From NCBI RefSeq assembly GCF_964355755.1, contig NC_092672.1, positions 34,034,501 through 34,098,500 on the forward strand: 64,000 bases of DNA. The letters run 5' to 3'. The translations under genes were made by a program, and so were the position numbers. How positions within the stretch are numbered: position 1 is the first letter of the stretch; each line of letters begins with the position of its first letter. The DNA comes from Antedon mediterranea. Lineage: Eukaryota; Echinodermata; Crinoidea; Comatulida; Antedonidae. The notes beneath the pieces were generated by a model, which saw only the letters and a program-made list of their open reading frames with translations, made no database searches and was not told where the DNA came from. This document shows positions 21,359 through 63,600 of the stretch, piece by piece.

Positions 21359-21560
21359 GAAACACAGCAGTTAAATTTAGTCTAATTTATTTGTGTAATG
21401 CCTTTATATTGAATTATGGTGGTGTATTAAACTATATTGTAACCCTATGAATAGAGATCACTCTCCAGAGAGAGACCTTGTGTGTTAAGAGGAGAGATTC
21501 GTGTTGAAGAGTCAAGTTGTGAAATAATACAGCTGTATTTATAACTTTACATGTCAAATC

Positions 21561-21640
21561 ACTTCTGATATCGCGGCAGCTTCATAAACTGCCTCTTTGC
21601 ATGCCTCCAGCATGATACTAGCTATATGGGCAAGTTTGAC
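21561..21640 (-). repeat. Partial duplication of the MRM3 terminal coding end in its 3' region
   Basis: TCACTTCTGATATCG, GCAGCTTCATAAACTGCCTC and GCATGATACTAGCTATATGG here repeat, in the same order, the last ~25 codons of MRM3 at 21654-21735. The copies are about 90 bp apart. The duplicate lies just 3' of the stop codon on the coding strand. Confidence 0.85.
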
Positions 21641-21653
21641 AGGCATAGCTATT

Positions 21654-35993: not shown

Positions 35994-36683
35994 TGCATGG
36001 CCTTATATTTGACATATATGGATTCAATATTGCATGCAGTAATTATACTTTTTAATGTGTATGGCTTCTTCCCAGAAATATAAATATATTTATGTTATTT
36101 ATATTATTCTACATGGTCGCCTAATAATGCCCAAGTATAATACATTTATTAAATGCCACTGGCATACCACCTGCATTGCTCCAGGCTTCAATTTATGATT
36201 TCGTACTGACTGATTGATGAGGATGGATTATAAGATGGGGTAAGCATGATTGATGATGAAAAGTAAGAAATAGATGACATAAATTTATTCATTCTTAATT
36301 GGTCTAATTATTCCAAATGAGAATCAGCCCACGTTAAAATCAAACTTGTTGAACTCGGAAGGATGCTTATAATTTACAATAAATAAACTATAACTATCGA
36401 TATCATATTTATGTTAAATAATAAAACGGTATTCTAGTACTGTAATAATAAAATTAAAAAATTAAAAAAGCATAAATACACTGATGTAATTGAAAATATT
36501 CAGTATTATTTATTAAGAAGGAGCTCTCAACCACAAACATTAATTTCACACAAATGAAAATATCTCTTGCTAATTTTTACAGTATTCTGTTCTTGCTACT
36601 TGATTAAAAAATGTATTTGAGCAACGTTGTTGGATTAAAATTGTTAATGCAAATATTATATGCATGTAAATAATGCCATTTTA

Positions 36684-39600
36684 TCAAGTATCATCATCTA
36701 AGCCCATCTCATCTTCATATTCCTTATTGGAAATCTGAAAAAAACAAATCAAAAACTGATGTATACCAGTATTTACCAATCAGTACAAATGTTGCAAACT
36801 AAAGTTACAAAATAAGTTACCTTTCCTCTCTTGAGCTTTTTCACCAGCATGGCATCTTTAGCGAGTTCTGCTAAATCATCTTCATCAAACTAATAATAAA
36901 AAGAACAATCAATTGTCAACTGCAAAATAGATTCAAACAGAATAATTGAAGTAAATGATAAAAAACGTGCCCATATCATTTCTGGGAATCCTTTATTGAA
37001 TTACAGTTTAAGCAAAAGTAGAAAGCTAATAAAATATTTATCATACTTGTTCTCGTTTCCTTTTCTTTGACATCTCTTTTCGTTGTCTTCTGTCTTGTCG
37101 TTTATTTTTCTTTTCTTTATGCAAAGACCATGCAGTTTGTTTCTTCTAAAAAAACAATGTAATGGTTATAGAATTTGTAAAATTTGCCACTATTCCCAGC
37201 TAAACCTAAATTTTCCTGCAACTTTTACCCTGCATACCAATTTTGACTTGAATGTAAAGTTTTAAAATGAATCAAAAACCCATACTTGAAATTCTTTCTT
37301 TATCTTCACTTGCTTTCCGTCCTGTTGTAACCTTAGTTTCTCTTTCCTGTGTTTTTCTCTTGACTTTTCCCTGAAATGAGTTGAATTTCATAAATGCAAA
37401 CTGCATAAAGTCTAGTACACCTTGAGGAACCTTCCCCTTTGACAAGAAAAGGTTTTCAAAGTTTGCTAGTGTAAACCAGTTGACAAACTTCAGTACAAAT
37501 TTTTCTTGGCTAACTTTACTTTGGAAAATACAGTAAACCCCAAGTTTGCAAAACAAAACTAGACTTGACTCATTGATAATCAAAGAACTATAAACATGGG
37601 TTAAAATATAAACAACTACCTGAAAGGTATAGCTTGAATATCAACATTTGAAGCTTGAAATTCTGGGAATTTCCGTCCCTTTGTTTCAGGCATCTTGGGC
37701 ATCTGCAACAGGCCAAAGCCATTTGCTAGTTTTCCAAGCTCTAAATCTAAACATAAGAAAGAAACATGTAAAGGTATCTATTTAGTAAGCTTAAGCTTAG
37801 ATAACATCCTACTAATTAACAAGAATTAAGTTTACAACTACAAAGGTAAAATTGGCATTATATAATTAATCTCACCTTTTGCTCTAAAAATGAGACTGCA
37901 TTCATGTTTAACATACGCCTGGTAGAAAGACACAAATGCTTGCATTCCTTTCTCATATATTGCACTGAAAAATACAAAAGGATATCTTTGGTCATTATTA
38001 AGTAACACTCCAATTCTTCGATTAGGATCAGCCAATTGGTAAACTATATAATAGTTAACTACTGTATCCCAATAATTCCTTCGATGTTTGAATAGTTCCA
38101 AATGCTTTAATTTAGCGAAAACCTAATTTTGCACAATATCAGAATGTGAACACTTCCTTTAGAATTTCCAGAGTGTTAACTAATACTATATTGTACAGTT
38201 TGTCTTAGGACAACTTTAAAATGAAAATGGGAGAGGGTCGAGCTTTTAAATTTTACAGATAAGTGTGATTCAATTACGAAAGCTGGTAGTCTTATTACCT
38301 GATCTTGCTTGCATTTGCATCAGTCACACACTTTTGTGAGGTTGCATCAAAAATAAACACAAAAGTTGAATAATTCCAAATATAGAAAATCTCCAAATAT
38401 AGAAAATCTCCAAATAGAAAATCTCCTAATATAGAAAATCTCCAAATGTTCATCAGAAACAAAATTGCTTCCTTTAATTATAGTAATACTATTATAAGTA
38501 ACAAAGTGCATTTATCTTTCTTTTTAAGCTCTACTTCTAAGCTTCAATGTAAAATCATTCCAAATATGGAAAAACTCCAAATATAGAAAATTTCCAAATA
38601 GAAAATCTCCAAATATAGAAAATCTCCAAACGTTCATCAGAAACACAAATTGTTTCCTTTAAACAGTACGCTATTATAAATGACAAAGTGCATTTATATT
38701 TCTTTTTAAGCTCTACTTCTAAGCTTTAATGTTGAATCATTCCAAATATGGAAAATCTCAAAATATGGAAATCTCCAAATATAGAAAATCTCCAAATATA
38801 GAAAATCTCCAAACGTTCATCAGAAACACAAATCGATTCCTTTAAACAGTACGCTATTATAAATGACAAAGTGTATTTTTTTTTTTTAAGCTTCTAAAAT
38901 TCAATAATTCTTCTATATATAAAATTGTTTCTTTTTTTTCTAAATAGTCATCAATATAAAAGGCACAAATTGTCGATGACTGAACACGTTCCAATTGGCT
39001 ACATGCACCATTTTCCATGGAGTTTAAAATCTTCAAACAACCATTTGCTTTTGTTCACATTATTATTATTTCCTTTGCAAACTATTTGTTGGGCAAAACA
39101 GTTGAGCAGGCAATTTTAGCAAATCTCGATTTTTTCTTAACAATTCTTTATAGTTATTTGTCCAAAAGCAACCAACGTCATGATGAATTGTGACTCACAA
39201 TTTGACAAAAAATTTTCCACATTTTACAAATTTCCTACTACTTACTAATATTACAACTGTACAACTGTTATGCCTTAGTTATTAACCAGTATTTGTATTT
39301 TCAACTTGATTTAGTGATTTACAGAAAACAAGTGATTTTAATCGTTTTCTGTAAGTTGGTACACGAATCCAATACAAGATAGGAAAACACCATGTTAACA
39401 AAATACCAAAGGTTCTTGAATATGATGTAATAGTCATTAAATTGGGACAGTCCAAACAAAAGAATGCATACACATTAACCATAGAATAAGGTAACTGAAA
39501 AACAAAATGGACTGTTGTCATAATAAGCAGTGTTACTGCTAACTGTTTAGACTTTATCCATTCAGTTTTCTTACTACGTTGCTGAGTTGTCAACTTCTCT

Positions 39601-42600
39601 GAACTTTTTACCATTTTATACAATAAAATATTTAATATAGTAACAAACCCCAGAATTATTAAACTACAAAAGTTTGATATTACCATTATATAAAGCATAA
39701 TGTTAAGATACAAAAAATACAAATCAATATATAATAAAGTAGAAAGGCTTAAAAAAAATAAAATACTAAATGACCACAAAATACACAAAAATATTTTATA
39801 CCATTTTAACTTAATGCATTTATACCATACTGGTCTTGCAACCGCAAAATACCGGTCAATCGATAGAATTGCAAAGTGAACAATACCAAAACAAAATTCT
39901 ATTATAACTAAGGAAAGGGACAAAAAAGTTAATTTTATTGAAATATTCAACACGGCAACCACCCAAGATACACTTAAAATGCAAAAGGACAATGCAGTGC
40001 TTCCTATGATGAACATTGCCTTTGTCATTATCTGAGGGTATCTGAATATGGACAGGAAAAAAATGAAATTTAAAGTGAAACTTATCAAAGAAAAAGATAA
40101 ATCAATTTCATAATTGGTCCATCGCATTATATTTCCATTGAAATAATCCATGATGAAGTGATCCAAAAATGTATTATACAATTTCTCAGTTAATACTACA
40201 GTACTACTCATACATTAAATAATGTATATTGTCACATATTAGCAATAATGAACAAGTCCTAATATAGACACAAAATGATCAAACAAATTCAAGTATATAC
40301 TGTAATATATATGGCAGTTATATAAAACTGACCATATTTGGCACAGAAATCCTGCTTGCAATCAAATCAATTTGCAATCAACAATGTATGCAATATAACG
40401 AATATATGCATGATGAAAAATAATTAAGAAACATTTTTCAAAGGCCAGAAGCGAGTTATCTGAAGACTAAATCAACTTTATGTAGAGACGTGTAGGCCTA
40501 TTTCATCACAAATGATGATGTGAACGAAATTTAAATAAATCATTCAGCACAAAATTGAATTTCAGTAAATCATATTAGTCAATGAAAAGATTCTTCATTT
40601 TTTTTATGAAACTTAATATCAATAATTTAATTGATGAACAAAGAAAGTACATTACATACATCAACGACAACTAGTTTGACAATAAACGTCTTCAATTATA
40701 CCAATTCTTCACACATGTCAAAGAATACAATTGATTATTCAAACATACAACCACAATACATTATTTAAATTAAGTAATATGATGACAGTAACGATGCTGT
40801 TGAGACAAAATCTAATAAACTAAGCTCTATAGAAAAATTTCTTTGTTTTTCCACTTTTCCATTTTTAAAAACTTTACATGTAACAGATTTAAAGACTTAA
40901 AAGCTATATCTAACATCCTCCAAAAATATCCTTTGCTCAATTTTCAAAAAGCACAAAATCATTGGCTGTATTTGCCAATAATTGCAGTGGTTTTTTTCCA
41001 AGCACCCTTTGATTAAAAAAACCAAATCAATCAACCATTTAAAAAATCAAATAAATTTGGATTTTCCAGAAGCAGGTTTAGCCAGCAAGTTAAGAATTAT
41101 ATTTTAAAATATCTGGTTTGTAATCAAATTGATTCATCAAGTGATTGAATTTCCAACTTGATTTGGAGTTTTACATGACACAACTGCTTTTACATGTTTT
41201 CGATGAGTTGCTGAACGAAGCAAATATACAACAGGAAAGTAACTAATGGTAAGATGGATAGAAGCATTAAAAATGGTAATCAAGAAATTTAAGGGGCAGT
41301 AAAGACAAAAATAGAAATAAAGATTAACTAATGCATAAGGCAAGGAAAATATCAAATTACCAAACGATAACATCATTAATGTCACTGCCAAATGGCGCGT
41401 TTTCTTCATTCTCCGTTTTCTAGTTTCTTGTGATGTCAGTAATTGTTTGGTCTGATTTAACACTTTTCTGTACAATAATATGTTCAGTAAAGACGTTATT
41501 TTAATGATAACCACACTTATGCAACTTGAAACAAGTATTAACATATCCCATGCATTCAGTAACCAATAAAAACTGATTGAAATTAATAAATAAATACAGA
41601 CTGAAAATACAATAGAAAATATCCACAAAATAATACAAACAGTTGTATAACGCTTGACCGTGAGGCTCCTGTAATATATTGGCTTTGAAACAGCAAGATA
41701 ACGATCAATTGTTATCAATCCAATGTTAACAAAGTAGAAAAGAATCTTGACATATATTAGTGTATACAAAAAGTACAGTAAACTTTCATAACTTGGTATT
41801 ACTATAATAAACATGCAAAAAGCTGTTACGCTATTTGACAAACTGGTACTTGCAATCAGAACATCAGTTTTTGGTAAACTCTTCTTACGATATCTTATGA
41901 TAGATAAAAAAAGGATGAAATTGAATAAAAATCCAATGACGCAAAAAGTGATATATAGCACATAAAAGAAAATATATATGATTGATTCCTGTTCAGAAAA
42001 GTCGGTTACATTGTTTTGAGTTGTGTAATCCATTATTCAAATATCTATAATTCAAATGCAAAGTCAAATGGTCACTCAAAAGTAAAAACATATGCACAGT
42101 ATAATTGAAAGGTTGCTAGTGTTTAGTGAAACAAAACACAACTCCGTGACTGTCCTAATATAGAAATGAAAGTTTTAAGACGTTTGGAGCAAGTGACTTT
42201 CATAAAATAAACATAACAATGTCCCAACATCAATCAAACATAGCTACCTATAAGTCAATATACTGGTTTAACAGTGTCATAGCAAAACACCAACTGCTCT
42301 GTCACAAGCTATTTCCTAATAAAGAAATAAAGTCTTTGGCGTTTTGAGTACGTTTCATTCAATCAACCACAACTGTCCAATAAAGACCCACAGTAACTAC
42401 AGTTTTGTATCTTGATGTATGCTTTAATTGCCTTTTTGATAATGATTATTAATATTTTGCCAATAAAAATAAATTATTAACACGCATCAAATACTTAAGA
42501 GACATGTAAGTTTATTCATCATATTGATTCCTACATTCACTTGTCATTTAACAAGCTATTTTTAGTTCGAATCACATTTGTTTTTTCACAATTACTAATC

Positions 42601-45600
42601 TTACAATAAAATCAATAACTTTCAACCAGGGAGTTAATTTCAACAATAATTACTAATGACAATGTACATAAACTAAACTTTGATGGCAGTAGTCACGACA
42701 AAATGTCAATTTAAAGACCTCAAAATGACATATTTAACCTGCTCATATTTGGGCACCATCACACTTTTTTTAGTTTGATAGAAGTGTAAACATAGTTTAA
42801 AGCTCTGTTTACATTATCAAACCAGTGGACTCAATGATGACATATGACTACCATATTTGAGCATATCACTACCATATTTGGGCACATCACACTTTTTTGT
42901 CACATAAAGTTTGACAGTGTAGTCAGAGCTTAAGAAACCCTTAAATTCTGTACAAGTCGTGTCCCGTATAGCAAAAGGATTGTATAAACACATTTAGCAA
43001 ATTTCAGCTACTCTAAAAAAATTGTATAATAGATGAGAAAACTCAAATGTTTGGATGTATAATAAATATTGACCATCATATTATATGTCCTGTTTGAAAA
43101 TATTTTTGTAGGCCTATCTCTTATTTTTTGGGCTGATCGATGAATCAACTTAAGACAAAACATTAATTTGCATTTCCAACTTGATTTGGAGTTTTACATA
43201 TCAAAACTGCTTTTACCAGTTTCCGATGAGTTGCTGAACGAAGCAAATATAAAGCAGGGAAGTAAATTATAACAAGGTAACCTAAAATATACAGAATAAG
43301 TACCAACATATCCATGAAATGACAATCAAAGCAATGACGGAAATACAAGTATATTATCGTTAACACCGCATACGGCAAAGAGAAAATCATATTACCAAAT
43401 GATAACATTAACAATGTCACTGCCAAGTGCCGTGATTTCCTCAATCTGTTTTTCAAAGTTTCTTTGTGATGTCAGTAAATGTTTAGTCCGATTTACTTTT
43501 CTGTACAACAGTATGTTTAGTAAATGTATTACTGTGATAATAACCACACTTATGCAACTTGTAATGAATAGTAACATACGCAATGCCGTCATTAACAAAT
43601 TAAAATTGTTGTATATGACAGCATACAAACAAACAGAAAATATAATGGAGAATGTCCACAAAATAAGACAAGCTGTTGTATAACGCTTGACCGTGATGTT
43701 CCTGTAATAAATTGGTTTTGAAACCGCAAGATATCGGTCAATTGATATCAATCCACTGTTAACAAAGTAAAATAGAATATTCACACATATTAATATATAC
43801 AAAAAGTAAGAAAGATATTCATTACTTTGCAGTTGTATAACAAATAATGATGAAGTATTTACACTGTTTGACAAGGTGGTGCTCGCAATCAAAATGTTAG
43901 TTTTTGTTATCATTTTAGTATATCTTATGATAGATATAAAAAACATAAAATTGATTGAAAATCCAATGGAAGAAAAGAACATTAAATACACTTTAAACAA
44001 GACATATCCTTGCAAGTCCAGTGCAAACAATTCTGTTGCGTTGCCTTGATTTGTGGAATCCATTATGAATCAAACAACAACTTATCTATTTCACGTTTTC
44101 CAAGACAGACTATAGTAAAGAAGAACTTTGACAAAAATAAATTTGAGTCGCGCAAAAACAGGCAGTAAAAAACTATGCTGAAGAAAGAGTAAAACATGCA
44201 CTGAAAATTGATGTTACAGTATATATACACTAACACAAGTTTACCACGTATTTAGTGAAATGTTGTCTGTGAAAGAGTATATCCTAATAAAAAATAAAGT
44301 CATAAGACAAGAATTTTGAGGTTTCGATCACGCTATAACAATCTTCTGGAAAATGTGTCAATCAAAAAAAAAACATTTTATTCCACAACAAAACCAAATC
44401 AATCAGATACTTGAGAGATAGGCATATTGGATCTGTCATATTCATACCATACCATTATGAAGTTAATAAGCAATTTTAGTTTCACTTCTATGTAGTTTGT
44501 TTAATCCTAAGCTACTCGTCTTACAATAAAATCAATACGTACGTATGATATATCTAGATAATTTCAATCTAATTATAAATAACCAAGTGAAGCAGTATGT
44601 TTACATTAATTTCAACTGTCATAACATTCTAGTCATGTCATTAAAAAATTGATATTAAATGTGTTTTATTTTAGCCTACATAAAGCAACAAACTTAATTG
44701 AGATTACAAGACTACACTAATTCTTATGCATCTTGTTATGTTCAAGCATGGAGAAGTTCTCCATGCTTGAAGTAAAGGTGCCAATTAGAGCTTAAAACAT
44801 TGTTCACACTTGACTTTAAATGGTAAATTTATTATTTATTATTATAGGAGTTGGATAGCCGAGTGGTTAGGACACTTGAATGTCGTACAGATAGACCCAG
44901 GTTCAATGCCCGACAACTCCCAGTTCACTCAGCTGTAAAATGAGTACCTGGTTGAAAATACTAGGGAGAAAAAAGGCGGCGTGGAAAGGAACTGGCCACC
45001 TACCACATAATGCCGAGGCTTAGTACAATGAGCTCATAACAGCTCATTCCCCTACGTTCAGAGAACACGGGACTCACCACGCACCTTCAGACAGTTTCAT
45101 TTTTTTTAAACAAATCTGAAAATCACAGGGTTGTGGTAGCAACTGCATTTGGTCGTTGAGAACAAAACATTGTTATCAACGAACGTCTGTAATTAGGAAG
45201 TCGTACCCAGTGCAGCACAGGAAAAAGTATTATATAAAAGCATAAGCATATTTCAACTACTGCAAAGAATGTTGTTTCATGTTTTTTATAATAAAAACAT
45301 GAAATACAAAAAAGATGACAAAATACATACGTTTGGAGAAATATTAAATATGGAATCATAAATATTACAAACAACATGCTCCAAAATATCAATGTTCTGG
45401 CTACTTGTCTTGATTTTCTTAAACTGTTTCTCTTGCTCTGAATATGATTTTGAATCTTTTTTTTTCGGATAAGTCGGTAAAGCAAAGCACTCAATATAAT
45501 TGAACAAACTATCAAAAAAAAACCTAAACTACTAACAATAAAAGCAGGAATAACAGGGAGTGGATTTACTAGCATGTCATCCATCCGTGAAAATTTTAAA

Positions 45601-48600
45601 TGCACTATGACTGGAAATAAAATACCGAAAACCCACATTACACCACAAATTACTTTGTAGACATTTGCTTTCATATTTTGATATGCAACAGGAATTAATA
45701 TTGCAATGTAACGATCAAGCGATATCAATAGTATATCAACAATTGTCATCAAAGTTTGTACGCTGTGAAAGGTCGCAATAAAATACCATAATGCAATAGG
45801 AATTCCGACGGTAACTGCCAAGGAATAAAAAATAACTCCCACGATCGAAAGTACAATGTTCGTAAAGCAAGCACTCATGAAAAAAATGCTTGTCTTAATT
45901 TTGTTTTTGTAAAACCTTACAATAGAAAGTATGAATAATATATTGAGTAGAAGTCCACAAGAATAGAGTGTTTCAAGAAACACAATTCTTCCTATAGCCC
46001 TGGGTTCGTCAAACTTTTGATACGATAAATTGATGTACATGAAAAATTCACATTCTTCCATTGTCGTTATTTTCACCACAAAAAAGATGTTCACTACTAT
46101 TTTGATTACAGTCAACTCTCCAAATACCAGATTCTCTGAAAACTGGAAACTCTCCCAAAACCGAAACTTTTCTTGAGGTACAAAAAGTCCAAAATTTATT
46201 TTTACAATTAAAAACACATTCTGTATACCAGACTTTCCAGAAAACCAGATATATTAAGTCAGCCTAAATGTGCCCGGTTTATTGTATTATTTATTTGAAA
46301 ATGTTATGTCCAATCCAATAACTTATTTCTGCCAAATACTTGTCAGCAGGAAGTTCAGACCCTTCTGTTGTTATGTCTTGTAAATTGTGTTTGGGTTTAC
46401 AAACTGTCATCAGATAACAACAACAAAATTACTTGTATCAAACTCTATAGTCTGATTGACAGAATTTAATAAAGATTGAATAGTTAGTACTGAAGGGGAG
46501 AAATATGAGCAAATTTACTTATCAAAATGATGTTTTCCATTTATTACATTTCCAAGATCAACAAAATTGTTAGATCACTCATGTTACAAACACTACAATG
46601 CTAAATTGTAATAACCTATTTATGTCTTTAATGATGTAAATCTTGAACAAAAAAAAATGAACATGACACTAGAGATAGTTTTAAACAATTGTTTATTTAC
46701 TTTCTGATGATTTTCATTGGTTCATTGGTTAATTTTGATTGGTCAAATAATGAGTAGGGGTCGTCAAACACACGGCCAGCCTGTGGTTCTTTTATGGCCA
46801 GCCTGTGGTCCGAGGGCGCTAGACATTTAGACAGAGAGATGTAATAAGAACACTAGAGGGCGTACTCCAGACTGAAAAGTGATTCCAACAGGAGGAGGAA
46901 CCAACAAGATGGCGGCCGTAAATGTGTCCAAAAACATTATTTAATATAACAAATAATAATCTAATATAATACATTAAGACCCATGAATTACAACACATAT
47001 TCTTGTCAAAGCACAGTGAAGTTTTTATAAAATGAAAACAGCTGTAGAGGGCTCACTTTAGAAAAGCATGGAAAAGTTATGTCTAGCGCCCTTGGGACCA
47101 CAGGCTGGCCAGTATGTCTAGCGTCCTCGGACCACAGGCTGGCCAAAAAAGAATCACAGAGCCGAGACGGGCTGTTTGTGTGTTTTCATGCTAGCGCCCT
47201 CGGGACCACAGGCTGGCCAAATGTCTAGCGCCCTCGGACCACAGGCTGGCCAAAAAAGAGAACCACAGGCTGACCGTGTGTTTGACGACCCCTTTAGCAA
47301 ATAATTGTCCATCCAACACACTGTAAAGAAAGTTTGAAATATTGAATCAATAGGCTTGCCTCACTTTCTTTAGATTTTGTCTTATATTATCTTTATTCAT
47401 TTCATTTTCATATAGAATTTCATTAAACATGTATCTCTAAAACATATTAGTCTACATTTCATTATCTTATGACATTTATTTATCAATTTATACAGTATAA
47501 TAGAGATACAGTACAGATGGATAAGACATAAACAAACAATACATAACTAGAAGATTTGACACCTTGTTACATTTATTCTCCAGAACTAACAAACAAATAA
47601 AGTTCAATACAAGACCAAACAACCTTTTTTTTAAAGTGTTATAATGTCCTCCTAAAAAAAATTTTTTTTTTCAATTTGTTTTGTTGAATATGCCATTTTA
47701 AATTATTGTCATATAACAGTTATTTACTTTGACCAAAAACTGGATTGGAAAAAAAAAATTATTTTTCTAAAAAAAATATAATTTTTGAATAGCCAAAAAA
47801 TACCTGTTTTTTTGTTAAAATATGTGAAATAATTATTTGTAGTGATTTTTTTTCTACAGAAGTGAATAACTTTTTTTTTTTAATTAACTCTATTAATCTT
47901 TATTTTGGATGTTTTTGGGGGACAAAACATCTTTAACTAATTGAAGTAGGTAATTTATTCGCACCAAGATTCAACAATTGATACAATTACACTGTGAAAG
48001 ATATAGAGTTCTGCGGTGTGACGTCACAATAGATGCCGCTGCATGGTTTCTAGCCAACCAAAAAATGCGTTCAACCCTACTATGTTGATAATCTGTATAG
48101 ATCTGTATTTCTATCAAATTATGTATCTTAGCTTGATTTTTTAACCTAAAAAACAAATATTTTGTGATCTTTTGAAATTTTATTGAAAATTATTAAGTTT
48201 ACTCCTTCAATAAGCCTATTCCAAACCATTGGTGACCTTGGAGTAACTACGGCAGGTTAAATGCATTTTTTGGTTGGCTAGCAACCATGCAGCGCCACCT
48301 ACCGTCGTGACGTCAGCACCGCAGAACTCTATAATCTTACAATGCAGAAACTGCATTATTTGCTTTTGACAACACTAGCAGGACATTGTTACGATAGGAA
48401 GGAATACGAACCCAGTAAAGAATTGGAAAGAAGATGTAGTATAAACCGTTAGATAACAAAGCCATGATAACAAAATTTGGGTAGTCCTCAGGACCAATAG
48501 ATTCATGAACAATTGATACAAAAACAACAAATGTAATAATCTCAAGAATCATTATCGGCAGAAACAGGAGAAAGTTCATAAGAACTGTCAAGAACAAAGT

Positions 48601-51600
48601 CACAGCAAGACGGTGAGATTTTCTTAAATTTGTTTTCGTATTTTGGTCTGTAACTTGTTTCTCCTGTTTAGATACTTTTCGCATGATAAACGCATACAAA
48701 CTAGTTGTAATCAAAACCATCATCACGCCAAGTACAGACGTTGAAAACATTAAAAGTAAAACAAGCATTGAGAATGAGACTTTTACCAGGATAAGAATTG
48801 TACAAACACCAAGTGTTGAAAAGCCCAGACAGATGGCTATATAATGCCTGCTCTGGATTTTTTTATAGAGATGTGGATGCGAGACTGCAAACAGGCGGTC
48901 AACAGCAAGAAGAAGCATAATTAGCATCGAGAAAGATAATGAAAAGTAATAAAGAGAAGAAACAACAGTCTCATCTATTCCAGTTCTTGTAAAGTAACAA
49001 TTAATTTGGTAGCAAACATTAAGGATATCTATAAATGTATATAGAATAGCCAAACCTGATATTAACGTAGCTGTTTTAGTTCTTGTCTGTCTTGGAACGA
49101 CAATGGTAATAAAGAAAAACAAATTTATAAATAGCCCAATTACATATATCATCAATATTATAATTGCAATTGAATGGGGAAATCCATGACAAAATTCCTC
49201 TGTTGCATCAAGATACCGAGATGCGTTAGTGTATGAATCGTTGATTGACATTGTTAGCCTATTATTATAATAAACAAAAAAAACAGATAACTATATGGTA
49301 AACTTTAATCCAAATATGTTGTAAATTTGTAATTATACTGATATGCAAAACATGCAAAATAATAATATGATAAATTATTTGTGTAAAATTGATATGAAAA
49401 ATAGATTATGTACACAGTTTTTTAGAGTTCCACGTTGCGTGCTTTCTCACAACCTTTTTCTTCTTAATAAATTGTATGCATGCGTCAGTTTTCAGGAAAA
49501 AATGTTGACACTTGATCTTGATGAAACAAAGTCAGCAAAAATGTTCACCTCGAACAAGAAATAAAGTGCCAAGCACTCTGAATGTCTTTGGAACTTTATG
49601 ACATTTGTTGACAGTAAAATGTGCTCAGTGGTGACAAACCTCAATTAATTTTCTATGCAATAAATTGTTTTTTAGAATGTCTACATTGGCCCAAGAACAA
49701 ATAAAACAGCAGAAGTATACAGATGTACAACAATTCTAAGCCAAAATCTATCTTTGAATGCAAAATGTGTCAAAACAACTTAAAGTTCTTCCAAAAATCT
49801 ATCTTTTCACACAGAATGTCTAATAACAACTTTGAAGTTCTTCCAAAAATCTCTCTTTGAATACAGAATGTCTCAAAACAACTTTGAAGTTCTTTCAAAA
49901 ATCTCTCTTTACAGTACAGTTTTGTTCCTCCCACTGATGCCAGTCGCATCCAAGAAGCAGTCTTCTCTAGCATCCAAATATATGCTGGGTCCGACAATAC
50001 AGAATGTCTCAAAACAACTTTGAAGTTCTTCCAAAAATCTCTCTTTGATTACAGAATGTCTCAAAATAACTTGAAGTTCCTCCAAAAATTTATCTTTGAA
50101 TACAGAATTTCCCGAAACAATTTGATGTTCTTCCAAATAATTTGTCTATGTAACAAATTATACAACTATATTTTTTACAAGCAAAACACACGTTTGAAAA
50201 GCTGAATTCTCTATGATGTATTTGTTGACAACGCAAACATTGACAGTGTGACTCTAAATTGAAGCGTTTTACTTAAATACATTAAGAAATAAACACAATC
50301 ATTTTAAACCAATTTATTTGTAGGACAAAATAATTGATATTAAATTGTCAAATTGAATTAACCTTGCTTTTTTTTTATCAAACAAAATATGAACAATAAG
50401 CAATACAGCTATAACCAAAGTATTTCAATCAAATTGACTTACTAAATGATGGCAACACATTGTACAGTAGTTACTAACATCGAAAAGGAATTAGTACACT
50501 AATTTCTTTCTCTTAAAGGTAAAGTTCATTGAAGAAAAACTCAAAACAAAATTAAAACACCAAAGCCATCATAATTCAAGGTAGAACATTGAATAATATT
50601 TTAATGCACTTATTTGTAAATCATAATAAATTGGCCTTAGAGATTCTGAGTACTCTCCTTTCATTCATGTTATAATTACTTTTTATGAGAATTGAAAAAA
50701 AACCATAAACTACTGTATAAAGCAATACTTTTTCTTATCTTCTCAAATTTCATGTCAATTTTAATAAATTTAAAATTCAGACAAATTTTTCTTTTTCAAG
50801 CCTATTATGTTATGACAAAGTTCTTCATTAACTAAAAGGTATATAAAATCGTCTTTCTTGTAAACGTACATGTTTGAATATTCTACCATACATTTATTAA
50901 AAGGTATTGATATCAAAAACTCTACTGGATGATGATTTACCAGTTATAGATGCAAACGTTACTGCAATGCCGCTATCCTACATTACTAATTTATCGTTAG
51001 TCAACTGAGAGCAGTAAATGTTAAAACCTGCCCTCTATACTTTTGGAACATGCTGTACTCGATAATTGATTTAATCGGTCATAACAAATTAGAGAACTTG
51101 TAAGACATGAATGCCATGTCAAACAAATACATTTTTAATTAGTAAACAAATGGTATATTGGCTTAATTATTAAACTGTCATTATTGACGTGAATACACAG
51201 TTGTTTAATATGTTAACCTTTGAACCCAACAATATTCTATCTATCCATAGAGATATTATATATCTCTATGATCAATCATATGATTGACATACTGATGATA
51301 GTTCATGAGTATAAGAATAAACAAAATGAGGCAAAACTCTCCCTTAGCAGAAATGGTCCACAGGCCTGTCAAGAGTGTCAGCCCATAAAACACACAATTG
51401 TAATTTTATTATATTAACTGCCCATCAAATACAACCCAAGGGTACTATTAGGTCATTTACAACAAGGTCACACTCCAGCTCGCCTCTCATGTGTGTTAAG
51501 ATAAACAATCAGAACTGGTAAATTGTTTAAAACAGACCAAGATTTATTACCCGGATTTTTTAAAAAACCCGGGTGAAATGGACTGATTCTGCTAAGGGAG

Positions 51601-54600
51601 AGAAATGCCTAATGGACCTGCCTGTAAGTGTGTCCCATATTGGGAAAGTTGATTAAATTATAAACAATACATTCCTATTACGGTATTTCAATTCTATTAT
51701 AATAATTAAATTATCCTAATATTATTGAAATTCGATAAAGCAAAGTAACCTAAGTTGAGACTGTAAAACTAGTAGGCTTAATTCGCATGTGAAAACAACT
51801 TTTACAGTAAAACGCATCACTCATGGTTTTTTTGTATACGGGTAAGTTGCGCCACATGTAAATTGGGTTAGTAACAGCTCGAAGCAAACACAGATGCATT
51901 ATAGCAAATTCAATGTGAGTAATATACGATTTACCTACCGATGCTGGTCCTGTTAATAAAGTAAAAATAAAATAAGGGAAAAAACATATATAATAAATAG
52001 TGAGACTAAACACAAAAGTCTTCGCAAGTTTCTTACTCAACAAAATACGCATCCGATTACAATGCTCAGAAAATCGTTTTTCTTGTAAACGTACACGTTT
52101 AAAGATTCTAACATACATTACAGTCACAATGATCAGTAAAATTGTAGCGACAAACGTAAAGATATCCACAAACAAATTATTTGCATTTATATCTACAAAG
52201 ACATTCATCCTCTCTAGAGTAACTATTGTAACAACAAACGTGACTGATATAGCTAATGTTGCCAAACATACACGTCCATATATTCTGCAGGTGAGAGTGG
52301 CATAGGTCATTGGGCAAATAACAGCTACGTAGCGATCTATAGTCATATACAGAAGACTCATCAGGCTTAGAAACTGTGCAGAACTGAAGATGATTGGAAT
52401 GCTATACAAAAAGCAAAATTCTCTACCATATAAATGTATAAGGGTACAGATAACAAGGATCAACACACCAGTTAGAAGTTCAACACCAAGAACATTAATA
52501 ACTAAAATATCCGTCTTTGTTTTCTTCTTTTTCGCTACGAAAATTCCATACAGTATGACTGAGTTGAGCACGATTGCAGATATGGTAAGAAAAAAAGATA
52601 CAAACATTCCATAAATGTGAATGGCATGCAAATCAGATGTTCCATTTTCACTGGAGTTGTTTGCAACCATTTTAAATATGAAAAAATCCTGCCGAAACCG
52701 TTTGATAGATACAGTACCAAATATCTGCATAAAAGTTTTACAGTAGATTTACAGTTTCAGTTCAAAGCAGATAAGCAGTTTATCGCCAATGAATAATTTA
52801 TAAACAATCAGCATTTTAAATAAAAAAATACGGTTCACCAATTTATTAATCAGAACAAAAAAACATCCAAAATAATTTTCTGGTCAAAACAGACAAGTTG
52901 TTACAAAGAATAACAGTTTTAATTATCAGCATTTCAAATTCAAGGCTAAAAATAATTAACTTACTGAAACTAGTCTACTGTTGAATCCAATTTATAAAAG
53001 ATTATAATTTCAAATTTATAATCAGGTCAACCAATTAGCAAAACATCCAAAATAATTTTCTAGTGAAATCACAATAGTAGTTCCTTCATTTGATCACAGT
53101 TCAGTTTAATTGAAAGAAATTGTAGTGCTTGTCAAATAAGCTTCAGAAAATGTTAGAAAATGTATCTATAAACTGGTAAACTGCCATTTTTATAGACAAA
53201 CAACAAAGGCACATCTTATTCTGCGACGATATTCTGCATCTCATCAAAATTACTAAATTAGAATGCTCTGATGATCTATATCAAGTATTATAGTGGATAT
53301 TAGATTTCAAAAGGTACCGTACATCCCGTTATTACTTGTACATCAGCTAGATACTTAATGTGTATAACTAGCTGTTATAAATGTCTCGGTTACAACAATC
53401 TATATCAGTAAAATTACAATTTGAGTATTTCATGTCAATATGTTGGTTGATAATATTGATTACTGCTGGTAATAATGTTCTGATATACTTCAATAATCAT
53501 TGTTGTAACTTTAAAAAAATACATCCACTTAAAACAGAATGTTCAAATTAGCCAACTGGCTTTATTCAAACAAATCAGTAACTATACACTTTATTATGTC
53601 AACTAAAAAACTGTCATCATATTTCAAAATTAATTATTGAGCAAAGTAGTTTAATAAGTGCTACAGTTGAATGAGTTCTAAAGTTGAAAAGTTCTGCAGT
53701 TAAATAAGTTCAGCAGTTGAATACATTCTGCAGGTGAGTAAGTTCTGCAGTTAAATAGGTTCTGCAGGTGAATAAGTTCTGCAGTTAAATAAGTTCAGCA
53801 GTTGAATACATTCTGCAGGTGAATAAGTTCTGCAGTTGAATAGGTTCTGCAGGTGAATAAGTTCTGCCATCAAAATTATGCAGGTAAAGAAGTTCTGCAG
53901 TTGAATAAGTGCTAAAGTTGAATAAGTCTTGCAGTTAAAAAAGTTCTGCAGTTGAATAAGTTCTAAAGTTGAATAAGTGTTGAAGTTGAATAAGTTCTGA
54001 AGTTGAGTAAGTTCTGCAGTTGAGTAAGTGCTGCAGGTGAATAAGTGCTGAAGTTGAATAAATGCTAAAGTTGAATAAGTTCTGCAGTTTTCAGCATAGG
54101 TTGTGCAAAACTATTCAAAATAATCACTGTTCTATTTACAATTGAATTTGTTATAAAATAATAAAAAATAATTTAAAACATACAATTTTTATCAAGTGAC
54201 TGTGTCATGACCGACTCTTGAGCTTTTAAGGTATAAAACTGACTTCATAGCCACACGATACTTAATGTGTCTAGTCCAGTAAATCCATGGATTGATAGTG
54301 CCGTCAACAATCAACCAAATCGCAGTAAGCGATACCTCACAAGGAATAATGTCACAGATAATATCTTCACTTACATCACTGTTGAATAGATCCTTGTTAC
54401 GAAATAACTTAATAGATTTACCAATTAAAAAAGGCAGCCAAAGTAAATATGTAATCACAAGGCGTATTGTAAATGAAACAACAAGTTTGAAGTTTCTCTT
54501 CTTACTCCATCTGCCACTCTCTCCAGATTTATTCTTTGTAATTTGTGATTTATGTCTAATGAGAGTTTTAAAAATCCTGCTGTATAAAACCGCAACAGCG

Positions 54601-57600
54601 AATAAACTGATTGCGCCAACAGCAACAAAAATTGCCATTATAATAAAAATGGCCTTATAGACTGCTCCGTTACCCAATTGTCCAGCAACAATTGAACCAC
54701 ATACCAAGATAAGTGTAAATGTCCACATAGCAGTAACCACAAGTACATATTTCCAGGGTCTTGGATATTGTTTATATGTCAAGGGCGAATGAACAACAGC
54801 CAAAAATCTGTCTACTGCGATTACAAGAATTGTAAAAGGAGATAAATTCAAAATACACAACCATATCATTGAAACTTGAGTTGAGACAATAAACGGTTGA
54901 TAGTAGTATAAAATACTGCTCAGAATGACCAAGAAACTGGTGACAATGTCCACAACTGCTAAGTTACCAACTAAAATATTGGTCTTGACTTGTAATGACT
55001 TGGTCTTTAGGAGCGCTGCTAGGAAGATGGAGTTCCCGATAAACGTTACCATTGCTGTCATTACCGATGCACAATAATAGACAGTGGTTCCAAGGTCACT
55101 CGGATCAGTTGTATTTACATCCATCTCAAAACGTAATTCTGTATTTTAACCTCCGATGTTTTTTAGATGTCAAGACACAGATGTACCATAGTAAGAGCAA
55201 TAATCATCATATATAAAGAAAACTAGAGCACAACATTGTACTTTGGTTATACTTATTATATCATTTAATCAATAACTTTCAAATTGGTATAACCTACTCT
55301 ATTCACCTATATATACTAAAAAAAAATTGTATTGTACTTAATATTGTATTGGTTTTAAACAACTTCGTGTAAGTAATAATAATTGTTCTTGCTCATGACA
55401 GATTGCAGTATTGATTATAAATTAAACTATTAGTACCTGCATGGTGGTATAACATAGTCAAATAACAATAGTTTCTTGATGTGTGGTAAATATGTATCAT
55501 CATAGGGAGTCTTTGATTTACGATGACCTTGGAACTATAGTTACGTCATCATGTTAATTCATTGTGCCCTTGAGAGGGGTGGGGGGGGGGGATATTGAGA
55601 TGTGCTTCCTGTTTCCATTCCTTAACACAGTTTTGGTGGGTCTAGACGACAACTAAAGTCGAGCGTAGCGCAACGCAAAGCAAAAGCTTATTAAGGCCAA
55701 TTTACACAGACGAGCAGTAAATGGAAAGTGGAAAACCACGTAGGTTGTCCCACATAGAATCTGATACTGGGCAGAAACCGCCTGTCTGCTAGGCGTTGTG
55801 TGTAAATGGTCATAGATTCTATATTTTTATTACCGTTACCGCTCGTCTGTGTAACTTATATCAGTAATTATGAAATCAATATAGGAAATAAAATCAATGC
55901 AAACACTTGATGGAAAAAATTTCACAGAAACATGCATTATATAATACAGTAATATATTTATGACAATGTTACATTTCTATTTTTCAGAGAGGATGTCCTT
56001 AAGGTATAATTCACATTGTTCCATTTCACAAAGCGAAAGACAGTTCTACTTTGTTCAATGATGGAAAGTCATATAAGAAACTGAACGGTGCAATCCTGAA
56101 AATGTAAGTAAGTGTGAAAGAAGTTTATGTTTTTTTTCTTCAATCATACGCCTACAAGAGTTATTCCATCCACAAAAACATATACTAAGGCTACTTTCAG
56201 ACTAAAAAAATTAGATATATTTATCTAACACAAGTTGTATGGTGATCCGTGGCGTTAAAATGGAAAGGGTTCAAAGATAACCTTCTAAATGTCTAGTATT
56301 TCAAATGAAAGTTTTGTCGTATCACCAATCACGGTCATGTCTCTACATTAGTTGATGTAAAAATCTGTGATGCATCAAGACGCAGTGGCATTCACAAACC
56401 TGGCTTCTATAAACGATTTGTTGTAAATGTAGAACGCGAGGTGTTACCAGCTGTATAATATTGATCCAGGGTTCAGTTTAGACATTTTTTCATTACTGTG
56501 TTTACCGTTTTTCTGTTGAAGATGATACGTCATTAATAGTTGATGGTTTCTTTCTGAAAAGCAAGACAGACTTCATAGCCACACGATACTTAACGTGTCT
56601 AGTCCAGTAAATCCATGGATTGATAGTGCCGTCAACAATCAACCAAATCGCAGTAAGCGATATCCCACAAGGAATAATGTCACAGATAATATCTTCACTT
56701 ATGTCACTGTCATTAAAAAATAAATCTTTCTTTAGAAATAACTTCACTGATTTGCCGATTAAAAAAGGCAGCCAAAGTAAATATGTAATTACAAGCCGTA
56801 TTGTAAATGAAACGACAAGTTTTAACTTTCTTTTTTCACTACATCTGCCCCCTTCTGAAACCTGACTAGTCGTTGTCTGTGTCTTATTTCTAATGAGAGC
56901 TTTAAAAATCTTCCTGTATAAATATGCAACAGTGGATAAACTGATTGCGCCAATAACAACAAAAATTGTCATTATAATAAAAATGCCCTTATAGACTGCT
57001 CCGTTACCCAATTGTCCAGCAACAATTGAACCACATACCAAGATAAGTGTAAATGTCCACATAGCAGTAACCACAAGTACATATTTCCAAGGTCTTGGAT
57101 ATTGTTTATATGTCAAGGGCGAATGAACAACAGCCAAAAATCTGTCTACTGCGATTACAAGAATTGTAAAAGGAGATAAATTCAAAATACACAACCATAT
57201 CATTGAAACTTGAATTGAGACAATAAACGATTGATAGTAGTATAAAATACTGCTGAGAATGACCAAGAAACTGGTGACAATGTCCACAACTGCTAAGTTA
57301 CCAACTAAAATATTGGTCTTGACTTGTAATGACTTGGTCTTTAGGAGCGCCGCTAGGAAGATGGAGTTCCCGATGAACGTTACCGTTCCAATTGTTCCAG
57401 AAAAAAAGTAGTAAGCATGTGTACCAAATTTATTTGAATCTGGGATTGTGTCATTAAGTTCCGTGCCATTTTCATCCATTTTGATCTTCAATAGTATCAA
57501 TTAATGTTGAACCTTGGCCACAATAAAAGCAGGTATGATAACCTTCACTTTATCAGTTATGTAGTCACAAGGAAAAAAGTTGTGTGGTTGTCGCAAGAAA

Positions 57601-60600
57601 TGGGAATAATCTCTGTTCAAGCCACTGGGTTGTCAACGTCCTCTGTGAAAAAGTGGTCAGGTTGAAACCTTACAACCCTCCTTATACGCTATAAATCAAA
57701 TTTCTCAAAACTGCTGGCCAAATGATACCATTAAATCAAGTTTCTCCTACAACACTTTTGTACATTTGGTATTAGCAAAACATGTTCTCTTGAAGCATTC
57801 AATTATCTTGGCTTACCCTTTATGAAATTCTGCTACAACCTGTAGAAGTTAATAAGCTTGATAAAGTAGCTTTCCAAATTCAGAAATCCTTAATTTGTGT
57901 TGAACATCTCACAGCTACCATTAATGAGTATTTAAATATCTTAGACGATGACATTCACATTAGCACTACAAAATATCCTCAACACCAGTATAGGTACTCA
58001 ACAACTATTATACAATGGCTACAAACCATAGCAATCTTGTTTATACATAAAACAGACTTTAAAGTATGGTTTCAAGGCATATAATGTTAATTACAGATGA
58101 ATATGTGAAAAGCGTCACTTATCCAGAAGGCATCCAAGCTAATTATACTTGTACTGCACAAAAAATATATGAACTGTGACACATTTACTACACAGAAGGA
58201 AATCGAACAATATTCTGTTAATCAATTTAGATAAACGATATCAAGTCCTTGAATGTTACTATTCACATTGAAATAGTTTTAAATAAATGCTAGTGGCAAG
58301 TCAGCCCACACTTATAATCCAATAGCACTGCATTATTCATTGTTACTTAATCCTTGAATTATCATTATGATTTTCTTTAAAAAAATTAATTTTTCATTGA
58401 AATTGGTAGAAATAGAATGGAATATGTATTGTACACACCCTTCGGATAATAATAAATGACAAAGAGGGGGTTTTGTGTAAAATTACATTATCCATAATTG
58501 AAATGTATACTTTAGGTTTATACTATAGGAAACAGACAATGAAATTATTTTGATGATGATTGTATTCAATTTTACAGTAGTGTTGTTTTATTAGAATATA
58601 TTTGTCTATAAAAACACATTTTACCAATCTCAATCATCAGGGGAGAATCCATAATTTTGTTTTCTGTTAGGGTGGCGACCATCGCTAAACAAGGATTGAA
58701 GTGTTTGACTTTTTTTTTTGTGGGCTACTAAGAGCAAAATTGCCTACACCTGGACCTTCCAAAGGCTATGGCTAAATTTTGAATTTTAGGACAAAAATTC
58801 ATTTTATATTGTTTGGTTTTCAGATGCAATATAATCAATCCCATTTTAGATATATATGAGATATTAAAACAGTGACGTAGGTGAGAGTAAGCTGATTAGA
58901 AAAACTTATAGAATATTTGATCTACATAAAACATGAAATAAACATTTAACACTGTCTATCTTAAGGTCATTTAGAAAAGCTTTTAAAAGGATTTTTACTT
59001 CTTACATGAGATAAAGGTTAGAACGAAAATTTTCAATTTTTTTTTAAATTTTCAAATTTTTCTTATTTTCTTCTCTATAATAAATATTAAAAAAACAAAA
59101 AACATCTCGTGTTCAAGGGATCACAATCCTTACCCAAACAATGCAACGAACAAATTTATTCAACTATATTGTATATATTTTAGAAAATTAGAGAATGAGT
59201 AGTAGTAGTATATTTTCTTAGGGAAAATGTGCATCAGAGAGAAATATTCCCCACTACTAAGGTTGTGTTCAGACTTTAAACTCACTTATGTGTAACCTAA
59301 ATTACTCTTAGGAATAACCAGACGAACTGTTCAGACTACAACAAATTTACACATGTAAACTATCAAGCATATTTAATGCATCTTTTTACATTAGTACGGT
59401 AGGTTGCGGTTTAAGGTGTATTTGAAAAATTGGGTTTTTGATACAGCTAGTTTAACTCAACATTTACAGCACATGCAACCATTGCATGTGTAAATTGTAA
59501 AGTCCGACCAGGCTCTAATTCAGATTCACACAAGGACTGAGAGAGTTTATGAAAATAGTACAGGAAACAATGTTGGTAGTATTATCTCAAAAAAGAGCAA
59601 TTAGTATTTCTCATGAAAATCAAAAGCATGCAAGCATTAAACCTTTTGCTATTTGTAAAATTTCCATGCAAGTTGAGCACGCTTTAGAACACCACCCCCT
59701 GTCAAACTGCCCACCTGACACTGTCTCAGGATTGTGTTGCTTAACACTAAAAACATTGGACCTGGTGACCCAATTCCCGCATAACCCGATAAATAAAAAA
59801 ACTGACTGTGAGAAGATTTTGCAATTTTGCAATTTTGCAATGCTGACTGTAGTTCAATTTTGATAATTACAATACCATTTCACGTATTGATTACAATATT
59901 AATAATTAATATTAACTTCTAAGATCAGGAATTGTGAAAGTACCAGGTAATTTCCCGGTACTTGATTTGGTCTACTAGTGTTGTCCCTTCTAACCCACTA
60001 GTCATCTAAAAGATACATTTGAAAACTGGATGTTTTCTGAAAATGCAATATAGGCCTACGCACCGTTTTTCACAAGACATTAATTATTGAGTACAAGACA
60101 TTATTTATGTAATACCAGACATGAATTATGGAGTACAAAACATTATTCAGGATCTTGCGTAAACACTGATTGCGATTGGTGTGACGTACAAAAGTAATTT
60201 TCAAATTAAAAATAGAAACTGATTAAAAAAAGAGGGCCTGACAATTCTCAACAGTCTGTATACAGTGGAAAGTGATTTATACGCTCTAGTTAATATGCTC
60301 AACATGCTACAACGCAGACATAGTGATGTGTGTGTGACTGAGTAGGGGGTGTGGCTTCAAACTGGCATATATGATTGGTCAATTAACAGAGCCATGGTGG
60401 TAGTCTTTTCAGCCTAATAAGTTGTGATTGCAATTTTTTTTTCGAGACAAGTAGGGGGTTACCCGGTGTACGAGTTCACAAACTGAACCACTGTCGTAGA
60501 CAGATGTATTGGCGCCGTAGTTGGCTGCCGGTGACACGATGTGACCCTTAGGGGAGAAGAACATTGTTGAAAAGGTATAACATCGCTCTGATCTTCACGA

Positions 60601-63600
60601 AATAGCGCTATATAAATGTCGCATTTTATATAGTATTTTTATAATAGAAAGTTGATATTTCAACCCAAAAAAACCGTTTCAAAAGCCTTTAGGAAATAAA
60701 GTTTCTGCGAACAGAATATTATAGTATGATTCAATATTCAAAATTACATAAAAGGATTTAGAAATATGTTTCTATTAGAGAACTTACCGATCCTGCTCTG
60801 CCATCTTGCGTAACTTTGGAAGAATATCAATCATTTCTATATCAGAAGCATCATGATATTCTTGAAGAGGAACCTGAAAAAAATAATCTTAATTAATATT
60901 CCAAAGATTTAGAGAAAAAATTGTTTTGCAATAAATTATGAATGAAATAAAAATAATCTTTTCTAAAATTCTGGATCACGTACCTTCTGATTAATTTGAA
61001 TAAACTCCACATACGTGTCTTCTGTTGGTAATAGAAAGAGCAACGCATTACCTGTGTTTCCTATCCTAGCTGTCCTTCCACAACGATGAACAAAAGCACT
61101 TAAAAATCAAAGAAAAATATTTAAAATTAACTAAAAAAGCCAATCTATTTACCAATCGTAAGTATGAATTTTCGGGAAAAAATTTGGGATGGGATTATAC
61201 TTAAGTGTTCCAAAATTTTTATAAATTAAAGAGTGGGATTATACCCGAGCATGGGATTATATTCAGATTGCAACATTTGTGTCCAAATTTAGCTTAAATT
61301 ATGATGTGGGCTTATTCCTGAGCATGGGATTATACTTTGTCATATACAGTATACATTTTCTAACTTTTGAATTTTATGTGACAAAAAAATGCGATGTGTC
61401 CAAATATGGACATGATGATGTCATATCACTACCATATTTGGGTACATAATAATATTATACGAATTTGTAAAGCGCCAATTCCAGCAACAATTAGTGATCA
61501 AAGGCGCTGTGGACTTAGATGTTTCATCTTGTCAACAACATTCTTCTCCCCTAAGGGTCACATCGTGTCATCGGCAGCCAACTACGGCACCATTAAGTCT
61601 GTCCACGACAGTGTGTATGTATGAACTAGTACACCGGGGTAACCCCCTACTCGTCTCGAAAGATGTATTTTAAAGTGCACATGAGCCAGATGTACACTGG
61701 ACCTACGGTTTATAGTCCTTATCCGAAAAGACTTGTTCTACCACCAGAACCATGGAGCGAGTGAGCCTCGAACCCTTGCCGATGTTTTGGCTATGGATTA
61801 CGGTTCCACTGTCTTAACCGCTCGGCCACACTCACATCACAATTTTGTTGTCAAACTAGTTTAATAGTGTAGGACTGACCTACCAACAGATTGCATACAT
61901 TGTTTGACAACAGCAAAATAGAAGATAATCACAATGAATCATTCAGTCTTTACCTGGCATTGTTAGGTGGATCAAACTGTAAAACCCAATTGACTTCTGG
62001 GATATCAACACCACGGGCCATCACATCTGTGCATACCAAAATACCACTGAAATTAAACCAATTAATTCATTACATAATATGGTGTCAGAATCCTCATGAT
62101 ATAATTTATATCATATAGTGTGTATATTATAATTAAAATCTGTTTGAAGGTACTGACTAAACTTGCTCGGTAGCTCTTTTTTTAGAGAAGATCAACAAAT
62201 AACTATAAAATAATGTGTTTTTGTAAAATAGGCTTGTTTAAGGACATGTGAAACGTATGAGAACAGACAGTGTGTGAACAGATTCAAGATGACCATAGAG
62301 TTTGTTCAAAGGTCTGTCTACACGATCAAACTAGTTTGGCAAAGAAAGTGTGATGTGCCCAAATATGGTAGTGATATCATGACATCATGTCCATATATGG
62401 GCACATCACCTTTTTTGTTACATAAATTTGATAGTGTAGAGAAAGCATAAGAATATGTGTTTAATTAACAAACCGTAGCATGTGTATAGCTCTTACAGTA
62501 CTTGGAATAGTAATGGATTATTGAAGATGAAGAAATAAAAAGAAACCTGTGGTATATACCTTTCCAGCTTTCTAAACTCTGAAAATACTGTAGCTCTTTT
62601 TCCTTTCATCTTACCGTGTAAAGATAATACGCTTGTGTTTTTGACTAAAACACCTAAAGCTCGTCCAAAATACTCCACCTCTGCACATGTACTAAAGAAT
62701 ACCATGTGTTTTAAATGCTGAAAATCAAATACATATTTCTTTAATAATCTCGGTTGGGATGACTTTTTCTCTATTTCAAATTTCTTCAATATATTGATAT
62801 TTACTTAATAATTAATTTAAATGTGATTTGTCTAGTAAGACTTTTGTAATCTAGGCCTAGTCCCTTTTTCCCATTCTATACTTTTGTTGCACATTTTATA
62901 AGAGGGTCCCTGACTATTAGCTGCCATTGTTTTGTTCATCTGGACGGTTATTCTCTATTATAAGAAAGGTAAAATAAAAAATAAATATTATGTTATCTAA
63001 AATGCATATAGTAAGAACAGACATTTCAGCCAATGTTACCTTAAATTTTCTTAGAAAACCAACAAGAAAGTTGACTTTCTGATCACATTCACAAATCTAA
63101 AAAGTAAAGTTGGTTTTTTTTTAAAGGGTACATTAGTTTCTATACACAAGAAAAAAGTTGACAAGATTATTAATATAATGCCAACTTTGATATTAAAGCA
63201 TAATAATTAATATCCTTTTTAATGAAATTAAATTTCAAATACTACCATTTGAAATGGTAAAGATTATAAACACTTACGGTATAATAATTTGTTAAGGTTG
63301 ACGGAGTTCTTTGCTCCTTCTAAAATAAAAACAAATAAATTCATTTTTTAACAAGTACAGACATCGCATAAAGTAAGTGCTAAATAATACAGTAAAAGTG
63401 GGATGCCTCAGGACATTGCCCCTTAATAGGGGTGTTACAAAGGAGGTGTTCTACTTTTGACCTACACTTAATGTTTGATGGAATTAGTTCAGGCTAGTGC
63501 CTATTTGCTTTCATATCTAGTCTTAAAAATTTGTCAAGTCTCGACTTAAATGTGTTGACTGAGGGGAATTGAAATGCTTAATTATTCTGATTGAAAAAAA

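Follow-up and report, generated by a model that had tools for sequence, protein, structure and literature searches.

Sea urchin surreal-GPCRs are clustered rhodopsin-type receptors that have undergone lineage expansion, and the coding regions of the TAS2R genes are single-exon. The ApORs of the crown-of-thorns starfish are also clustered, lineage-expanded receptors of the rhodopsin type (PMC5442662). The human TAS2R bitter-receptor genes lie within introns of PRH1-PRR4, and the authors of one report warn that intronic reads from the host can be mistaken for TAS2R expression (PMC4466559). Nested intronic genes account for ∼12% of exonic bases in a ctenophore, a share similar to that in primates, and many of them run parallel to the host (PMC8527503). 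Human 'nested parallel' gene pairs have been catalogued, and in a survey of five genomes overlaps on the same strand were under-represented (PMC2330155). Nesting on the same strand can disturb the host through exonisation and early polyadenylation (PMC3192792), and in ant receptor arrays readthrough gates the choice of receptor (PMC12393541).

The locus described here lies in a 64 kb stretch of DNA (hereafter the window; C3:34,034,501-34,098,500 of a 354 Mb assembly in 18 contigs), in which a family of receptor genes occupies one intron of a DDX55/SPB4 DEAD-box helicase gene. It resembles the human arrangement (PMC4466559) in that several GPCR genes (chemosensory in the case of the TAS2Rs) are found inside introns of a host gene. 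It differs in that the human host is a salivary-protein readthrough transcript, whereas the host here is a housekeeping helicase; moreover, the TAS2Rs belong to another GPCR family and more than one intron is involved in human. In other animals, too, complete genes lie nested inside one intron, in many cases parallel to the host, and several per host are known; the present intron differs in being filled by a family of eight related loci. Clustering and lineage expansion of class A receptors are shared with the ApORs, which, however, are not described as nested and whose illustrated cluster has both orientations (PMC5442662). The present receptors resemble the surreal-GPCRs and ApORs in clustering and class A type, and a sensory role is a candidate role only.

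The preliminary description of this DNA regarded the nesting as unusual. This applies to its degree, an eight-locus family in one intron being striking, but not to its kind, which is known both from animal nested genes (PMC8527503) and from the human TAS2R genes (PMC4466559). Judged by these comparisons, a large nested family in one short-introned housekeeping gene is notable without being categorically new. What the sequence analysis adds is that the close relatives of the receptors lie in the same intron and form about three lineages, that two members (G and H) bear the marks of conversion and that dN/dS is below 1. We consider it likely that these are ordinary parallel nested genes, that is, an intron-resident receptor array that arose by tandem duplication, is held under purifying selection, uses its own promoters and is spliced out whole. 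The locus would be a clean natural case in which to study how a gene that is needed widely copes with a same-strand family, presumably of cell-specific genes, inside a single intron, and also a case for asking whether host transcription affects receptor choice, for which the ant readthrough may be the most interesting parallel (PMC12393541). It also offers a view of receptor-family evolution (duplication, decay and conversion) inside an intron while the splice sites and frame of the host are kept; the remaining biology is as known nested genes would predict.

The host gene

SPB4 is a ribosome-assembly helicase and DDX55 is the animal SPB4. The gene was modelled as 13 minus-strand exons joined by hand, and its parts relevant here are as follows.

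36681-63998, minus strand: in-window part of the DDX55/SPB4 host gene; 13 exons, 5' end outside the window
60788-60873, minus strand: DDX55 exon upstream of the large intron; ends ...MAEQDR, donor gtaagt
37965-60787, minus strand: DDX55 intron with the receptor array; 22,823 bp, phase 2
37876-37964, minus strand: DDX55 exon downstream of the large intron; acceptor tatttttcag, CTE_SPB4 domain starts here

All 12 in-window introns have GT-AG ends, and the spliced reading frame is unbroken through to the stop at 36,681. The large intron, which splits an Arg codon (cg/t) in phase 2, is at least 26 times as long as any other intron in the window; the remaining 11 measure 86–855 bp, so that the shortness reported for them previously stands and the range of about 100–880 bp is to be corrected. 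Over almost its full length the spliced protein aligns with two helicases of solved structure, of which one is named SPB4, and there is no alignment gap at the join of the exons at 60788 and 37964, where the best-matching helicase reads IREQAKKDREVFQLAQRAFVS. Matches to the domains Helicase_C, CTE_SPB4 and CTT_SPB4 were obtained, the CTE_SPB4 match beginning at this join. The protein combines a DEAD core with the CTE_SPB4 C-terminal extension and differs in nothing from DDX55/SPB4 DEAD-box helicases; the sole oddity is the one intron. Further 5' exons lie beyond the window on the same strand, with the ATG at C3:34,102,222 and a Q-motif exon near positions 2290-2345 of the upstream segment L001 (by eye, from the printed opposite-strand frame).

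In a search of the whole 354 Mb genome, each in-window DDX55 exon was found once, at this locus; no second copy of any of them was detected, and the other matches were to paralogous helicases of 28–51% identity. Because the splice ends are canonical, the phase is consistent, the alignment to SPB4 is gapless and both halves are single-copy, exons 60788-60873 and 37876-37964 are assigned to a single DDX55/SPB4 gene as firmly as sequence alone allows, in agreement with the junction originally proposed from phase and protein identity. The same observations bear on a possible misjoin in the assembly, by which an array from elsewhere would have been placed between two DDX55 halves. The disproportionate length of the intron is what such an error might produce, but each of its ends is an exact, canonical splice site and splicing there gives an unbroken SPB4-like protein, the N content of the window is zero and the two single-copy halves lie on one strand of a 39 Mb contig. 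Furthermore, intron sequence reaches the splice sites with no receptor at either edge, receptors H and A lying 3.3 and 1.3 kb, respectively, from them. A misjoin is accordingly regarded as extremely unlikely.

On its 5' side the host gene forms a divergent pair with a plus-strand gene that starts ∼630 bp from the DDX55 ATG and contains TIR-like and HEAT-repeat-like segments (by eye; L001:4549-10000, C3:34,102,849-34,108,300). Adjoining the 3' side, a plus-strand open frame of 459 codons (32399-33778) is rich in Ser/Thr/Gln and gave no Pfam match.

The receptor array

Eight open reading frames in the intron match Pfam 7tm_1. All are on the minus strand, like DDX55, and all lie wholly within the one intron, together with a short relic.

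39285-40211, minus strand: receptor A; intact, 309 aa
41140-42033, minus strand: receptor B; intact, 298 aa, modelled with seven helices and helix 8
43166-44063, minus strand: receptor C; frameshifted near 43465, pseudogene or base error
45126-46061, minus strand: receptor D; intact, 312 aa
48340-49251, minus strand: receptor E; intact, 304 aa
50846-50893, minus strand: relic of an F-related receptor; 48 bp, 16 codons, 81% identical
51753-52730, minus strand: receptor F; intact, 306 or 326 aa depending on the ATG chosen
54195-55124, minus strand: receptor G; intact, 310 aa
56505-57479, minus strand: receptor H; intact, 325 aa

The seven complete receptors comprise 298–326 codons counted from the first in-frame ATG and score above the 7tm_1 cut-off. 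Receptor C falls below it (27.6 versus 30.5 bits) because its frame is split, a 223-codon open frame giving way to another frame from ∼43,465. The earlier count of eight class A GPCR loci, all minus, thus holds for loci and strand but overstates the genes, of which we count seven intact, with C as a pseudogene or an assembly or base error. That these seven, the frameshifted copy and the relic stand head to tail on the host strand is strongly supported by the sequence. Neither the rest of the window nor the 10 kb upstream yielded a convincing receptor.

The core residues of class A (the TM1 Asn, the Asp-Arg of DRY and the Pro residues of TM6 and TM7) are kept in the aligned members, receptor C having been left out of this alignment. 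By eye, A, B, D and E share a departure in the NPxxY motif, which is FPxxY or similar in these four. With uninterrupted coding frames, 7tm_1 matches and conserved core residues, the reading of the receptors as single-exon class A members is supported. An AlphaFold model of receptor B, built on a five-sequence alignment, contains seven helices and helix 8 with a mean pLDDT of 68, and its best matches among solved structures are adrenergic receptors (TM-score about 0.6–0.7). The model indicates the general class A fold, the seven-helix arrangement being seen here for B only. A 183 bp tandem repeat of 2.9 copies (38365-38892) separates receptor A from the 3' end of the intron.

A first look at the whole genome gave 977 candidate class A receptors, 147 of which were scored; many of those elsewhere are also single-exon. 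Several further same-strand arrays were found outside this locus, among them those at C3:4.81-4.89 Mb and C3:31.56-31.65 Mb. Given the hundreds of receptors that this genome contains, it is not improbable that an array should lie inside some intron. The shared orientation, which the preliminary description had pointed out, is weak evidence because tandem copies keep their strand and other arrays here are also one-stranded; the probability that all members share the host orientation by chance is 1/2 if there was one founder and 1/8 if there were three lineages. To see whether other arrays are nested too, the flanks of six receptor clusters were inspected; the one at C5:24.93 Mb lies between dissimilar genes, Laminin_G_3-like and apextrin ApeC.

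Selection and gene conversion

The dN/dS ratio is 0.44 for G/H and 0.49 and 0.37 for two parts of B/C; deeper receptor pairs give about 0.26–0.40 with dS near saturation. These ratios, all below 1, point to purifying selection on the receptors overall. Receptors G and H share two tracts of high identity.

54636-55040, minus strand: conversion tract 1 in G; 405 bp, six mismatches to H 56970-57374
54241-54373, minus strand: conversion tract 2 in G; 133 bp, three mismatches to H 56569-56701

Between the tracts, around the third inner loop, the two sequences are clearly diverged, and a permutation test of the mosaic gave 0/5000. Outside the coding region the two genes are unalignable. As the overall dS of G/H is 0.26, flanks copied simultaneously would still be roughly 75–80% identical; the likeness of G and H is therefore local and recent. 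The tracts, with their sharp ends and high identity, are best read as recent gene conversion, which left both frames intact. No mosaic of this type was seen in B/C.

These results also weigh on the idea that the receptors are dead passengers, a family no longer expressed and merely excised with the DDX55 intron. Such a fate would account for the frameshift in C and for the relic, and the receptors share no promoter motif (see below), but it is hard to reconcile with seven open frames of ∼300 codons each in AT-rich DNA, with dN/dS values of 0.26–0.49, with the retention of the core receptor residues or with frames that remain intact after conversion. We consider it very unlikely. There is strong support, from the sequences compared, for a long diversification of the receptors as an intron-resident group through tandem duplication (A–E; G/H), purifying selection, decay and the recent conversion between G and H.

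Relatives and origin of the array

Genome searches with receptors B, D, E, F and H as queries placed the close relatives of the intron receptors inside the same intron, the best matches elsewhere being only about 25–33% identical. The first outside relative of A–E is L002 (C3:2.90 Mb, 31 Mb away), with 27–30% identity. Receptors A, B and D match other intron members first, or about level with L002, D being about equally near to L002 and to B, whereas E matches L002 best and intron members next. Between G and H the identity is 82%, and neither exceeds about 33% to anything else; the relatives of F found in the genome search reach only 22–26%. Around L002 (L022:100-5366), a relic of this receptor (3485-3580, 69%) and a minus-strand receptor piece (100-480) were noticed; C3:2.90 Mb therefore has a small receptor cluster of its own.

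In a tree that took in 20 outside receptors and has long branches, A–E and L002 form one clade (100/99), G/H form another and F stands alone. The AU test does not reject a clade of A–E (p = 0.51); the value for A–F is p = 0.0099. One origin for all eight receptors was considered and is weakly rejected (p = 0.026 for all eight as one clade). The comparisons suggest two or three, and probably about three, founding lineages: A–E (with L002), F and G/H. Their number is uncertain, given the long branches and a sample of only 20 receptors from outside the intron.

Under the nested-gene interpretation, the founders would have been a single receptor gene or a few, possibly a small cluster that included the ancestors of A–E, F and G/H. 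They would have entered an ordinary short DDX55 intron and multiplied there, and the intron would have grown because the array multiplied inside it.

Transcription and splicing signals

Each receptor would have a promoter of its own, used in a small number of cells that are probably sensory. DDX55 would be transcribed widely, its polymerase reading through the array, and the 22.8 kb would be removed from the host transcript as a single intron. In cells with an active receptor, part of the host message might be terminated early, and host polymerase using a receptor poly(A) site would yield a helicase that lacks the CTE_SPB4 extension.

It has also been asked whether exonised receptor–host chimeras exist. 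In this reading, the receptors would be alternative last exons of DDX55 or parts of chimeras made from the host promoter, for which their position on the host strand and the documented exonisation upstream of nested genes in humans (PMC3192792) could be cited. When the intron was scanned with an acceptor matrix built from 12 DDX55 sites, however, the 600 bp ahead of each receptor ATG lacked any DDX55-like 3' splice site, and just two occurred on its entire sense strand. A housekeeping promoter, moreover, would not yield receptor-specific expression. Chimeras are thus not favoured by the sequence, and we hold them to be very improbable. Donor-like sites number 11 sense and 24 antisense in the intron, raw counts that do not allow for composition and were not used.

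The possibility that the host strand is depleted of poly(A) signals was considered and rejected. The raw counts of AATAAA in the intron are 29 sense versus 65 antisense, but outside coding sequence and repeats the sense strand has 26, compared with 20–22 expected from composition. For receptors A and B, no AATAAA is found closer than 700 bp to the stop codon. The 400 bp upstream of the receptors contain no shared promoter motif beyond those in Markov simulations. Both of these negative results speak against the nested-gene interpretation with separate receptor transcription. A 12-mer, CTATATTAGGAC, occurs exactly at 40256-40267 and 42152-42163, upstream of A and B only.

Host transcription through the array could in principle be a regulatory device that silences the receptors or aids the choice of one per cell by transcriptional interference. 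The same-strand layout and the gating of receptor choice by readthrough in ant arrays (PMC12393541) would fit such a role, but the intron carries no sequence sign of one, and shared orientation is expected from tandem duplication; we regard it as highly unlikely. Equally doubtful is a specific version in which ubiquitous DDX55 transcription silences the array by interference and a winning receptor promoter lowers or truncates DDX55, with loss of CTE_SPB4. Overall, the sequence signals favour neither receptor–host chimeras nor a special transcription mechanism.

Other features of the window

Tandem repeats of ∼101 bp at 1513-2645 have a unit that holds an imperfect inverted repeat, and a minisatellite at 14187-15557 consists of ∼73 copies of 19 bp units with a 96% match and is open in several frames. 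Reverse-transcriptase-like ORFs in two overlapping frames (7745-9761, minus strand) appear by eye to be a frameshifted copy of a non-LTR retrotransposon. A minus-strand ORF at 21559-22160 resembles an rRNA 2'-O-methyltransferase (MRM3-like, by eye), and its 3' end overlaps a 95 bp tandem duplication that is 88% matched.
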